A program made the translations under genes and the position numbers. Shown piece by piece: positions 14,543 through 19,423 of a stretch of DNA of 32,026 nt (its first letter is position 1; the number at the start of each line of letters is the position of its first letter). The notes under the pieces were generated by a model, which had not been told where the DNA came from, ran no database searches, and saw only the letters and a list, made by a program, of their open reading frames with translations. The stretch is from Terrimicrobiaceae bacterium (GTDB lineage: Bacteria > Verrucomicrobiota > Verrucomicrobiia > Chthoniobacterales > JAATET01). The DNA is taken from the NCBI GenBank assembly GCA_028713285.1, contig JAQTOP010000036.1, positions 1 to 32,026 on the forward strand. Reading direction: 5' to 3'.

Positions 14543-15898
14543 CTATTTGCTTTCCGCCAGGGCGGCGAATTCCTCGGGGAATTTCGCGAGGAAGCTCTGG
14601 GTCGGCCATGCGCAGGCTTCGCCGAATGCGCAGACCGTGCGGCCGGCAATGTTGTCGGCGACGTTCAGCAGGGTGGCAGGATCGTTCGCCGCGCCCTGGC
14701 CCGTGAGCAGGCGGGTGGTGACCTTCGACATCCACAGGCTGCCTTCGCGGCACGGCGTGCATTGGCCGCAGCTCTCGTGGGCGTAGAATTGATTGAGGTT
14801 GTTGAGCGCCCAGACCATGTCGCGGCTGTCGTCCATCACCATCACGCCGCCGCTGCCGACCATCGTGCCGACCGAGGCGAGGCTGGCGGCATCCATCACC
14901 ACGTCGAGCATGGCGACCTCCTTCTCGACCATCGTTCCGTCCGCGGCCTTCGTCTTGATTTTGTAAACTTCGTCGGCGCGCATCACTTTCGCCGAGCTGC
15001 CGCCGGGGATGACGGCCTTCAATTTCCGGCCGGGCTTGAGGCCGCCGCACACGTCGTGGATGAGCTCGCCGAGCGTGACCGCGCCGGCGGGCAGCTCGTA
15101 GTAGCCGGGCCGCACGACGTCGCCGCTCACGCACATGGTGCGCGTGCCGCCGTCGCCGGGCGTACCCATTTTCGCGTATTCCGCGGCGCCCATGCGCAGG
15201 ATGTGGACGACGTGGCAGAGCGTCTCGACGTTGTTCACGATCGTCGGCGACATGTAGAGGCCGAGCACGGCGGGAAAATACGGCGGCTTGATGCGCGGAT
15301 AGGGCCGCTTGCCTTCGAGGGACTCGATGAGGCTCGTCTCCTCGCCGCAAATGTAGGCTGCCGCGCCCTGGTGAACGTAGATGTCGCAATCGAAGCCGGA
15401 GCCGCAAATGTTTTTGCCAACGAAGCCGCGGGCTTTCGCCTCCTTGATCGCGTTCCAGACGATCTTCGCGGCGTGCGGGAATTCGCAGCGGATGTAGATG
15501 TAGGCGAGGTTCACGTTCAGCGCCCAGGCGGCGATGAGGATGCCCTCGATGAGCTGGTGAGGATCGTTGTGCAGGATGTAGCGGTCCTTGAACGTGCCGG
15601 GCTCGGATTCGTCGCCGTTCACGACGATGTAGTGCGGCTTGCCGTCGTCGCGCTTGATGAAGCCCCACTTCACGCCGCACGGAAAGCCCGCGCCGCCGCG
15701 GCCCCGGAGGTTCGCGGCCTTCACGGCATCGACGATTTCCGCCGGCTGCATGCCGAGCGCCTTTTTGAGCTGCTCGTAGCCGCCGTGTGCGAGATAGGTC
15801 TCGATATCGTTCGACCAGCCCGGGCGGCTGATGTTCTCAAAAATGATGCGCCGTTCGCGCGGATGGGGCTGTGGAATGAGCGAAACCATGGCGGTCAA
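14543..15898 (-). CDS. nuoF: NADH-quinone oxidoreductase subunit F
   Basis: A 451-residue peripheral-arm subunit of complex I that binds NADH and FMN and accepts the first electron pair. Visible signatures are the NAD/FMN glycine-rich loop GRGGAGFPCGVKW (about residues 69-81), GDESEPGTFKDR for FMN, CGEETSLIES, and the N3 cluster ligands CGQCTPC plus a downstream Cys in RTVCAFG. The ATG at 15898 overlaps the nuoE stop codon (ATGA), a sign of translational coupling; a second in-frame ATG at 15889 is possible. Last gene of the nuoD-E-F unit. Confidence 0.96.
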   Translation of the reverse strand: MTAMVSLIPQPHPRERRIIFENISRPGWSNDIETYLAHGGYEQLKKALGMQPAEIVDAVKAANLRGRGGAGFPCGVKWGFIKRDDGKPHYIVVNGDESEPGTFKDRYILHNDPHQLIEGILIAAWALNVNLAYIYIRCEFPHAAKIVWNAIKEAKARGFVGKNICGSGFDCDIYVHQGAAAYICGEETSLIESLEGKRPYPRIKPPYFPAVLGLYMSPTIVNNVETLCHVVHILRMGAAEYAKMGTPGDGGTRTMCVSGDVVRPGYYELPAGAVTLGELIHDVCGGLKPGRKLKAVIPGGSSAKVMRADEVYKIKTKAADGTMVEKEVAMLDVVMDAASLASVGTMVGSGGVMVMDDSRDMVWALNNLNQFYAHESCGQCTPCREGSLWMSKVTTRLLTGQGAANDPATLLNVADNIAGRTVCAFGEACAWPTQSFLAKFPEEFAALAESK

Positions 15899-16431
15899 CC
15901 GGCGGCGAGTTCCTTGACGATGGACGGCACCTCTTCGGGCGTGACGCTCTCGTAAAGTTCGTCATTGATCAAACAAACCGGGGCCGTGCCGCAGCTCGCA
16001 AGACACTCGACGAACTCGACGCTGAATTTTCCATCCGGGCTGGTCGGCGGCGCGTGGCCGAAGCCATGCGATTCGTGGTGAACGTCCACGCCCGCCGCCT
16101 CGCAGAATTTCTCGCGCAACCCGTAGGAACCCGCCATCGCGCAGGCGAGCGTGCGGCAGACGCGGATGATTGTCTTCCCGGCCGCCTCGCGGCGGAACCA
16201 CGGGTAGAACGTCACCAGCTCGTAAATGTTCACCGGGGTGAGCTCGAGCTTCGTCGCGATCCACTCGATCCCCGAGTCGTCGATGAATCCGAAATGATTC
16301 TGCCAAAGATGCAGCAGCGGCAGCGAGGCGCTGCGCTTGGAAACGGGGTAGTGCGTGATCCGCTCCTCGATCTCCGCGAGCAAGTCGGCGGGAATCTGGT
16401 CGGCCTGTCGGGAGGTCGCTTCGCTGGTCAT
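15895..16431 (-). CDS. nuoE: NADH-quinone oxidoreductase subunit E
   Basis: A 178-residue thioredoxin-fold [2Fe-2S] subunit (N1a cluster) that works with NuoF in the NADH-dehydrogenase module. The four ligands are in CRTLAC (about residues 92-97) and CLASC (about 143-147), the canonical CX4C...CX3C pattern. HFGFIDDSGIEWIATKL and YELVTFYPWF are typical. It lies 53 bp downstream of nuoD and overlaps nuoF by 4 bp. Confidence 0.95.
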   Translation of the reverse strand: MTSEATSRQADQIPADLLAEIEERITHYPVSKRSASLPLLHLWQNHFGFIDDSGIEWIATKLELTPVNIYELVTFYPWFRREAAGKTIIRVCRTLACAMAGSYGLREKFCEAAGVDVHHESHGFGHAPPTSPDGKFSVEFVECLASCGTAPVCLINDELYESVTPEEVPSIVKELAAG

Positions 16432-16484: not shown

Positions 16485-17732
16485 CTAGCGGTCGCACTCG
16501 CCCATCACGAAGTCGATGCTGCCGAGAATGCTCACCACGTCGCTAACGAAATGGCCGGGCATCAGCTTCGAGCAGATGCTCAGGTTCACGAACGACGGGG
16601 CGCGAATTTTCAATCGATACGGCACGCCCCCGCCCAGGCTGTAAATGTAAAAGCCGAGTTCGCCCTTCGGATTTTCGGCGCCGAAATACACCTCGCCCGC
16701 CGGCGCCTCGACGCCCTCGGTCGCGACAATGAAGTGGTGGATGAGCTCCTCCATTTTCGTGAGCACGGCGACCTTGTCCGGCAGCGTGCTCTTCGGGTCG
16801 TGGACATTGATTTCGCCGCCCGGAATTTTGTCCGCGACCTGTTCGAGGATGCGGCAGCTCTGCTTCATTTCCTCCATGCGCACGAGGTAGCGGTCGAAGC
16901 AATCGCCCACCGTGCCAATGGGAATCTCGAAGTCGTATTTCTCGTAGTCGAGATAGGGATGTTTCCGCCGCAGGTCGTGCTCGATGCCGCTGCCGCGCAG
17001 GTTCGGACCGGAGATCGCGTAGGCAATGGCGTCCTCCTTCGAGATCACGCCGATGTCCTTCGTGCGGTCGATGAAGATGCGGTTGCGCGTGAGCATCGCG
17101 TCGAGTTCGACGTGAACCTTGCGAAAACCCTCGATGAACGCCCGAAGCTGCGCGAGGAACGTCGGCGGCAGGTCCCGCGTCTGCCCGCCCACGCGGGTGA
17201 AGCTCGTCGTGAAACGCGCGCCCGTCAGCAGCTCGATGAGATTGTAGATCTTCTCGCGCTCGGTGAACGTCCACAAGAACACCGTCACCGCGCCCACGTC
17301 CATCGCGAAGGCTCCGAGCCCCAGCAAATGCGCCGAGATGCGCGCCAGCTCGCAGCAGATCACGCGGATCGCCTTGCCGCGCGGCGGCAGCTCCCACCCC
17401 ATCAGCTTTTCCACGGCCAGCGCGTAGGCGACGTTGTTCGCCAGCGGCGCGAGGTAGTCGAGCCGGTCCGTGTAGGGCACGAACTGGTTGTATTGCATGT
17501 TCTCCGCGATCTTTTCGTCGCCGCGGTGCAGGTAGCCGATGTCGGCCTCCGCCTTCGTGATCAGCTCGCCGTCGAGTTCGAGAATGATGCGCAGCACGCC
17601 GTGCGTGGACGGATGCGACGGCCCCATGTTCAGCGTGAGCGTCTCGCCGAGCAGCTCGCCGCCTTCCTGCGCCGTGTGGAGACCGTGTAGGCTGCGCGCA
17701 AGCGTGTCGGGTTGCTCGATGGTCGTAGGCAT
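16485..17732 (-). CDS. nuoD: NADH-quinone oxidoreductase subunit D
   Basis: A 415-residue 49-kDa-type subunit of the Q module that helps form the quinone site. LNMGPSHPSTHGVLR, YLHRGDEKIAE, VGGQTRDLP and the C-terminal IDFVMGECDR are all present. The ATG at 17732 (MPTTIEQ) is preferred; a TTG at 17783 would run into the palindrome described at 17784-17807. Usually nuoD follows nuoA-B-C, but here the upstream neighbour is a divergent ndh gene, so the D-E-F genes form their own unit and the other subunits must be encoded elsewhere if complex I is complete. Confidence 0.95.
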   Translation of the reverse strand: MPTTIEQPDTLARSLHGLHTAQEGGELLGETLTLNMGPSHPSTHGVLRIILELDGELITKAEADIGYLHRGDEKIAENMQYNQFVPYTDRLDYLAPLANNVAYALAVEKLMGWELPPRGKAIRVICCELARISAHLLGLGAFAMDVGAVTVFLWTFTEREKIYNLIELLTGARFTTSFTRVGGQTRDLPPTFLAQLRAFIEGFRKVHVELDAMLTRNRIFIDRTKDIGVISKEDAIAYAISGPNLRGSGIEHDLRRKHPYLDYEKYDFEIPIGTVGDCFDRYLVRMEEMKQSCRILEQVADKIPGGEINVHDPKSTLPDKVAVLTKMEELIHHFIVATEGVEAPAGEVYFGAENPKGELGFYIYSLGGGVPYRLKIRAPSFVNLSICSKLMPGHFVSDVVSILGSIDFVMGECDR

Positions 17733-17783
17733 GGGTCCGTGTGATTGAGCGAAGATTTCGATTTCAGCTTTGATCCGCCTCAA

Positions 17784-17807
17784 GCTTTGTGAAATTTTTC
17801 ACAAAGC
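17784..17807. promoter_or_regulatory. Rex-type operator in the nuoD-ndh divergent region
   Basis: An inverted repeat with two 11-bp perfect arms and a 2-bp centre. Its 18-bp core, TTGTGAAATTTTTCACAA (17787-17804), fits the established Rex operator TTGTGAA-N4-TTCACAA without mismatch. Rex is a repressor released by NADH at high NADH/NAD+ and commonly controls ndh, nuo and cytochrome genes. The site lies 55 bp before nuoD and just before the preferred ndh start, so one Rex dimer could control both. The match is seen; regulation is inferred. Confidence 0.75.
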
Positions 17808-17809
17808 CC

Positions 17810-19099
17810 GTGAATCAGCCGCCAACATCATCAGCCGGTCCCGAAAATGCAAGCCAACCCGTGGTGGTAATTGTCGGCGGAGGATTCGGCGGGTTGAGCG
17901 CCGCCATCGCCCTGCGCGGCGCCCCGGTGCGCATCCTCCTGCTGGACCGCACGAACCACCACCTTTTTCAGCCGCTGCTCTACCAGGTGGCGACTTCCCA
18001 GCTCTCGCCCGCCGACATCGCGAAGCCCATCCGCTCGATCCTCAGCGCGCAGGAAAATACGACGGTCTCGATGTCGGTCGTGCGGGAAATCCACCCCACC
18101 ACGCGCGAGGTCGTCACCACCGGCCGCCGCATCAAATACGACTACCTCATCGTCGCCGGCGGCGCGCGCCATTCCTACTTCGGCAAGGACGAGTGGGAGC
18201 AATTCGCCCCGGGATTGAAGAGCCTGCACGACGCCGTGGACATCCGCCGCCGCGTGCTCACGGCCTTCGAGCAGGCCGAAAAATACGAGGACGCCGCCCG
18301 CCGCCGCAGCGCGATGACGTTCGTGATCGTCGGCGCGGGACCGACCGGCGTGGAAATGGCCGGCGCGATCTCCGAGCTGGCGCACACCTCGCTCAAATCC
18401 GATTTCCGCCGCATCGATCCCACGCAGACCCGCGTGCTCCTCGTCGAAGCCGGCCCGCGCGTCCTGCCCACCTTTACCGAGGACCTGTCCACGAGCGCCC
18501 TGCGCCAGCTCGGGAAGCTGGATGTCGAGGTGCTCCTCAATACCCGCGTCACCGGGATGGGAGAGCGCATGGTTGAGCTGAATGGCGAGCCCCTCGCCGC
18601 GCATACCGTCATCTGGGCCGCCGGCAACGTCGCCTCCCCGCTGGCGAAGCAGCTCGGCGCCGAGACCGACCGCGCCGGCCGCGTGCTCGTGAATCAGGAC
18701 CTCACCATTCCCGGCCATCCCGAGGTGCAGGCCATCGGCGACATGGCCTCGGTAAAGAACAAGAAGGGCAATCCCGTGCCCGGGGTCGCGCCAGCGGCGA
18801 TGCAAATGGGCCGCCATGCCGGCAGGAACATTCTGCGCCAGCTCCGGAGCGAGGCGCCCGCGCCGTTCTGGTATAAGGACAAAGGCAGCCTGGCAACGAT
18901 CGGACGGCACGCCGGCATCGCCGACCTGCGCGGCGTGCGCTTCAGCGGCTCGCCCGCATGGCTGGCCTGGGCGCTCATCCACCTTTTCTTCCTCATCAGT
19001 TTTCGCAACCGCGTGTTCGTTTTCTTCCAGTGGGCCTGGGCCTACCTCACCTACGGCCGCGGCGCCCGTCTCATCACCGAGCCTCCGGCAAAGGGCTGA
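17810..19099 (+). CDS. ndh: Type II NADH dehydrogenase (NDH-2-like FAD oxidoreductase)
   Basis: About 429 residues; oxidises NADH with quinone without pumping protons, on the inner face of the membrane. The FAD loop VVIVGGGFGGLSAA is at the N-terminus and the NADH loop FVIVGAGPTGVEMAG in the middle. HHLFQPLLYQVAT, VIWAAGNVASP, IGDMASV and GVAPAAMQMG follow the NDH-2 pattern. The C-terminus (about 390-420) is a hydrophobic membrane anchor (WLAWALIHLFFLISF). The frame is open from GTG at 17789, but that codon lies inside the operator palindrome, so GTG at 17810 is preferred; neither has a clear ribosome site. Divergent from nuoD, and under the same predicted operator. Confidence 0.88.
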   Translation: MNQPPTSSAGPENASQPVVVIVGGGFGGLSAAIALRGAPVRILLLDRTNHHLFQPLLYQVATSQLSPADIAKPIRSILSAQENTTVSMSVVREIHPTTREVVTTGRRIKYDYLIVAGGARHSYFGKDEWEQFAPGLKSLHDAVDIRRRVLTAFEQAEKYEDAARRRSAMTFVIVGAGPTGVEMAGAISELAHTSLKSDFRRIDPTQTRVLLVEAGPRVLPTFTEDLSTSALRQLGKLDVEVLLNTRVTGMGERMVELNGEPLAAHTVIWAAGNVASPLAKQLGAETDRAGRVLVNQDLTIPGHPEVQAIGDMASVKNKKGNPVPGVAPAAMQMGRHAGRNILRQLRSEAPAPFWYKDKGSLATIGRHAGIADLRGVRFSGSPAWLAWALIHLFFLISFRNRVFVFFQWAWAYLTYGRGARLITEPPAKG

Positions 19100-19163: not shown

Positions 19164-19409
19164 ATGAATCCGCTTTTTGCATTGGGCATGCCGGGAATGC
19201 CTGAGCTCTTTCTGCTCCTGATCATTGTGCTCGTCCTTTTTGGGGCGAAGCGGCTGCCGGAACTCGCGCGCGGCCTCGGCCAGAGCATGAATGAGTTCCG
19301 CAAGGCCAAGGATGAGTTCGAGCGCGAGATTCACAAGACCACGCAGGATCTCGAGATCAAGGAGCCGACCGACAAGACGACCGGCAAGCCCGCCGACAAA
19401 GCAGCCTGA
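19164..19409 (+). CDS. tatA: Sec-independent translocase protein TatA/TatE
   Basis: An 81-residue membrane protein of the twin-arginine pore. A short N-terminal membrane helix (MPELFLLLIIVLVLFG) is followed by the FG hinge and the amphipathic helix AKRLPELARGLGQSMNEFRK, then an acidic/lysine-rich tail. It is the typical length for TatA. ATG at 19164 is the obvious start. tatB and tatC are not in the window. It lies 64 bp after ndh and 14 bp before the next gene, so it could be part of that transcript. Confidence 0.95.
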   Translation: MNPLFALGMPGMPELFLLLIIVLVLFGAKRLPELARGLGQSMNEFRKAKDEFEREIHKTTQDLEIKEPTDKTTGKPADKAA

Positions 19410-19423
19410 TTTCAGCGCTCTCG

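Follow-up and report, generated by a model that had tools for sequence, protein, structure and literature searches.

The perfect inverted repeat between nuoDEF and ndh in the 32,026-nucleotide stretch of Terrimicrobiaceae DNA analysed here (the window) is, judging from sequence comparisons, very probably a landing site for the NADH-sensing repressor Rex, part of a respiratory regulon of Verrucomicrobiota in which, throughout an order, sites of this kind accompany almost all stages of the respiratory chain. The repeat reads GCTTTGTGAAA-TT-TTTCACAAAGC, with perfect 11-bp arms about a central TT, and its 18-bp core, TTGTGAAATTTTTCACAA, matches TTGTGAA-N4-TTCACAA without a mismatch; the original prediction of 11-bp arms and of a fit to the Rex consensus in both half-sites was thus correct. 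This core is identical to the Rex consensus in the literature (PMC2883068, PMC5355995). Even with up to three mismatches allowed, nothing else in the window matches; at that level the shuffled window yields 0.32 matches. Under a dinucleotide model 2e-5 exact matches are expected in the window and 0.002 in a genome of 3.5 Mb, and the genome holds two, the nuoD/ndh site and one upstream of atpB (F0F1 subunit a). The search for further copies also returned one with a single mismatch, which overlaps the start of a polyprenyl synthase gene (L004:1501-1518, G000:C59). Among the weaker matches listed, those with two mismatches fall mainly within coding frames or next to a gene of LysR type and were not counted as targets. 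Three marks of a Rex operator are an 18-bp inverted repeat of this form, a rex gene in the same genome and a place upstream of NADH-linked energy genes that is conserved in relatives; all three are found here, the conservation having one exception (G003, below), and a fourth mark, binding by Rex with release by NADH, is predicted.

Table 1. Features at the nuoD/ndh divergence and loci with an in-frame operator at polyprenyl diphosphate synthase
Feature	Position or locus	Strand	Basis and remarks
Full palindrome, 11-bp arms	17784..17807	.	outer 3 bp on each side vary in relatives
Rex operator core TTGTGAAATTTTTCACAA (predicted)	17787..17804	.	exact match to 18-bp Rex consensus
nuoD, complex I 49-kDa subunit	16485..17732	-	Pfam PF00346 E=1e-111, TIGR01962; start 54 bp from operator core
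nuoE, complex I 24-kDa subunit	15895..16431	-	Pfam PF01257
nuoF, complex I 51-kDa NADH-binding subunit	14543..15898	-	Pfam PF01512, PF10589
ndh, NDH-2 type NADH dehydrogenase	17810..19099	+	Pfam PF07992, NDH2_C PF22366
Putative -35 box of ndh, TTGATC	17770..17775	+	inferred from relatives; missed by consensus scan
In-frame operator at polyprenyl diphosphate synthase	L116, L118, L119, L153, L163, L165, L168, L171, L179, L182, L183, L194, L198, L213

The rex gene that such an operator calls for is present in the genome. One clear Rex of 205 aa is encoded downstream of a miaB-like gene (L001:1489-2106; NCBIfam NF003995, E=5e-64, 215.6 bits against a cut-off of 126). It has the build of the family, which at about 210 aa combines an N-terminal DNA-binding domain (PF06971) with a Rossmann NAD domain (PF02629), and it carries the DNA-contacting Arg48/Lys49 and the NAD P-loop GxGxxG followed by Asp. 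The best solved relative is the Rex of Thermotoga maritima (PDB 5zz5, E=6e-38), for which the DNA-contact residues have been defined (PMC8836258). Arg12, Ser33, Lys43, Gln46, Arg48, Lys49, Gly58, Arg60, Gly61 and Tyr64 are kept, and two contacts are changed (Glu34 to Asp, Ser52 to Gly). In the NAD site the P-loop (GAGNLG), the next Rossmann Asp and the nicotinamide-site Tyr are all kept. Asp191 of the last helix, which in the T. maritima protein contacts the NAD-site Tyr, is replaced by Asn, and the recognition helix after RKDL reads Gly52-Thr53-Cys54, as against T/A-Y-F in most relatives.

The domain assignments (Table 1) bear out the predicted setting of the site between nuoDEF and ndh. Comparison of the frames in relatives makes the GTG at 17810, five bp past the operator core, the likely start of ndh, an in-frame GTG at 17789, within the operator, being a possible alternative; a small TatA/E-like translocase gene follows 3' of ndh on the same strand (19165-19410). 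A consensus scan found no sigma-70 promoter in the window, and in particular no clear one for nuoD. A putative -35 box for ndh emerges from the relatives, where TTGAAC, TTGATC, TTGGAC and CTGGAC precede the operator core at a corresponding spacing (G001, G002, G033 and G100). This TTGaNC-like box suggests that in the genus and in family f7 the -10 of ndh would fall in the A/T centre of the operator. At nuoD, atpB and actA (see below) in relatives, a CTTG[CT] box occurs at most 14 nt past the operator in 19 of 24, 28 of 34 and 13 of 19 cases, respectively, against about 1 in shuffles, so that the end of the operator adjoins a presumed -35 box. In relatives the operator centre lies at about -51 to -53 from the inferred start at these genes, a position at which activator action is also possible.

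The divergent nuoD/ndh pair carries the exact site in three of the four genomes of the genus (G000, the genome studied here, G001 and G002) and, outside it, in three f4, two f5 and two f7 genomes as well as at L021, where the NDH-2 is only 60% identical and the record gives the same rex coordinates as in the f5 genome G046. The site at this pair is thus conserved in the rex-positive families f1, f4, f5 and f7, and it was found in none of the four rex-negative genomes with the pair (G041, G026 and those of L016 and L017). By the original test, conservation of the palindrome in relatives with the same pair, the 18-bp core is kept in rex-positive relatives, the congener G003 excepted; the outer arm bases (17784-17786 and 17805-17807) vary. 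The half-sites were themselves set by the search, but position 8 of the half-site, which the pattern left free, shows A in 229 of the 242 symmetrised counts. The two central bases of the operator also vary among relatives with the pair, and variation there and in the arm flanks is what would be expected of an 18-bp protein site. In G003 both Rex and the nuoD/ndh pair are present, and the site has decayed to CCGTGAAATTTTCATAAA, with one central base missing (L221:1400-1445, G003:C65), so the switch is dispensable within the genus; the atpB site of G003 is intact.

The exact site and a Rex domain over the cut-off were scored in 147 genomes belonging to the order. The site occurs in 61 and the domain in 58: 55 genomes have both, 6 the site only, 3 rex only and 83 neither (9 discordant). 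Fisher's test gives p 1e-29, a value inflated by shared ancestry; inside the two families of mixed composition p is 0.009 (f7) and 0.0015 (f13), and these figures ignore ancestry too. Among the three genomes with rex only, G016 and G052 have a one-mismatch site at nuoD, and the third, G097, has Rex without an exact site. Five of the site-only genomes (G022, G045, G051, G062 and G085) have exact sites, and a full-length Rex query found no Rex in them; since these drafts are 89-95% complete, an assembly gap likely explains the missing gene. The site in rex-negative G009 falls inside the frame encoding an unrelated protein and was taken as chance. The lack of the site where rex is lacking is a natural experiment, with operator and regulator evolving together.

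A sample of the order's genomes supplied 109 distinct exact sites, of which 106 adjoin genes of the respiratory chain or of quinone synthesis. The nearest gene is atpB at 34, nuoD at 24 (11 of them with ndh), a multihaem cytochrome c at 19, polyprenyl synthase at 14, mqnE at 7, nuoE at 5, nuoB at 2 and cydA at 1, with 3 having no such gene; the nuoE sites lie 384-489 bp from the gene and hence are less certain targets. Domains and sequence of the multihaem cytochrome c point to ActA of alternative complex III as its probable identity; among NCBIfam models it matches the related QrcA best, though below the cut-off. This target set is an aerobic respiratory regulon. In family f6 the complex I genes are split over several loci, more than one of which has Rex-type sites (nuoB at L193 and L212; nuoE/F at L115, L121, L197, L204 and L210).

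At the polyprenyl synthase the operator probably holds the start codon of the gene. Its GTG is in frame as a start in all 14 sampled synthases and in the genome studied here (GTG-AAA-NNN-TTC-ACA, encoding MKxFT), and at some loci, for example L168, the conserved block of the protein is preceded by no other start codon. In 13 of the 14 sampled cases a TTGAC box stands 27-30 nt upstream, so transcription may begin at the start codon itself, which suggests a leaderless mRNA. In G005 the operator is also in frame with cydA (cytochrome bd) and mqnE (VKIFTK and VKTFTK; L128:1501-1518 and L161:2022-2039). We give roughly even chances to a wider proposal, that Rex acts in this order as master switch for the entire respiratory chain and that at polyprenyl diphosphate synthase a single 18-bp element would serve at once as repressor site, as transcription start and as start codon of a leaderless mRNA.

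For the site in the window, we hold with considerable confidence that the palindrome is the operator of the Rex encoded elsewhere in the genome and controls both ndh and nuoDEF, with Rex binding, release by NADH and repression carried over from the family. Rex proteins elsewhere repress while NAD+ prevails and are off the DNA once NADH is bound (PMC2883068, PMC5355995, PMC8836258). At a high ratio of NAD+ to NADH, Rex would thus occupy 17787-17804 as a dimer and hinder ndh, where the operator lies at the presumed core promoter, immediately ahead of the start, and also nuoDEF on the other strand, the operator being just upstream of the nuoDEF promoter. As NADH builds up, Rex would take up NADH and leave the DNA, and both NADH dehydrogenases would be made along with ATP synthase and the polyprenyl synthase for the quinone tail. 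The Rex footprint of 27-29 nt in Streptomyces avermitilis (PMC5355995) makes repression by occlusion plausible. From its geometry alone a single site could control nuoD and ndh jointly; the geometry does not fix the sign at nuoD, and repression there, as opposed to another effect, is the least certain part of the scheme. Both routes of NADH oxidation and the ATP synthase could in this manner be adjusted together, and the regulon offers a testable NADH-responsive system for a large, little-cultivated bacterial group.

The core can also be read as TGTGA-N6-TCACA, the CRP consensus. The spacing fits, the genome encodes a CRP/FNR-family protein (L013, C68) and, in favour of such a regulator as the one that binds here, genes for NADH dehydrogenases are under the action of Crp in Shewanella oneidensis (PMC12210985). 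Nevertheless, we consider this reading very improbable and have rejected it, because across genomes the site tracks rex and does not follow the CRP family: strong family matches occur in many f9 and f7 genomes that lack the site, and there is no strong match in the site-positive G008, G015, G033, G040, G045, G056, G062, G065, G071 and G074. Moreover, the sites keep TTGTGAAA, which reaches past the TGTGA core, and operators at the presumed start site of the polyprenyl synthase would ill suit an activator. A chance palindrome, or a terminator hairpin without a regulator, could account for a perfect inverted repeat with a T-rich centre, but it is hardly credible in view of the excess of exact matches over expectation (two against 0.002 per genome), the conservation across families tied to rex, and the retention of both half-sites while the centre and the outer arms vary. 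The genes diverge, leaving no 3' end to terminate, and no terminator was found in the window; this candidate was also discarded.

A less remote alternative, though still an unlikely one, accepts Rex binding and confines effective control to ndh, the nuoD promoter being little affected by an operator upstream of it. The 54 bp between the core and the nuoD start agree with it, as do the -35-like CTTGC box of nuoD, which in relatives comes after the operator, and the failure to find a clear nuoD promoter in the window. On the other hand, 13 further sampled sites lie upstream of nuoD without a nearby ndh, and 7 upstream of nuoE or nuoB, implying that nuo genes are targets by themselves, and a footprint as long as the 27-29 nt of S. 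avermitilis (PMC5355995) would extend to the -35 box.

Our literature search, which did not cover the comparative study of Ravcheev et al. (2012), found no description of a Rex regulon in Verrucomicrobiota. Joint Rex control of nuo, ndh2 and atp is known already, from S. avermitilis; one shared divergent operator is a modest variation on it, and the known concept of Rex is unchanged. For Bacillus subtilis, PMC2883068 cites a study by Gyan and colleagues (2006), reportedly of a Rex-ndh loop in which ndh is repressed by Rex and the activity of NDH-2 in turn affects NADH; unlike here, that ndh operator has no complex I gene on its other side. The Staphylococcus aureus Rex operator, TTGTGAAW4TTCACAA, is fitted exactly by the present core, in which ATTT fills W4, whereas that Rex is described for anaerobically induced and fermentation genes, without nuo (PMC2883068). 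The T. maritima Rex (PDB 5zz5, 7wb3; PMC8836258) is the closest solved structure by sequence, with most contact residues shared, and differs in that Gly, Asp and Asn here stand for its Ser52, Glu34 and Asp191. The nearest parallel in targets is the S. avermitilis regulon (nuoA1-N1, ndh2, atpIBEFHAGDC, cydA1B1CD and rex-hemAC1DB; PMC5355995), which has the same consensus and likewise subjects complex I, NDH-2 and the ATP synthase to a single repressor that senses NADH. Its nuo and ndh2 sites, however, are separate and less perfect, whereas here one exact site would serve the divergent nuoDEF and ndh, and the regulon of this order adds quinone biosynthesis (polyprenyl synthase and mqnE) and, probably, alternative complex III.
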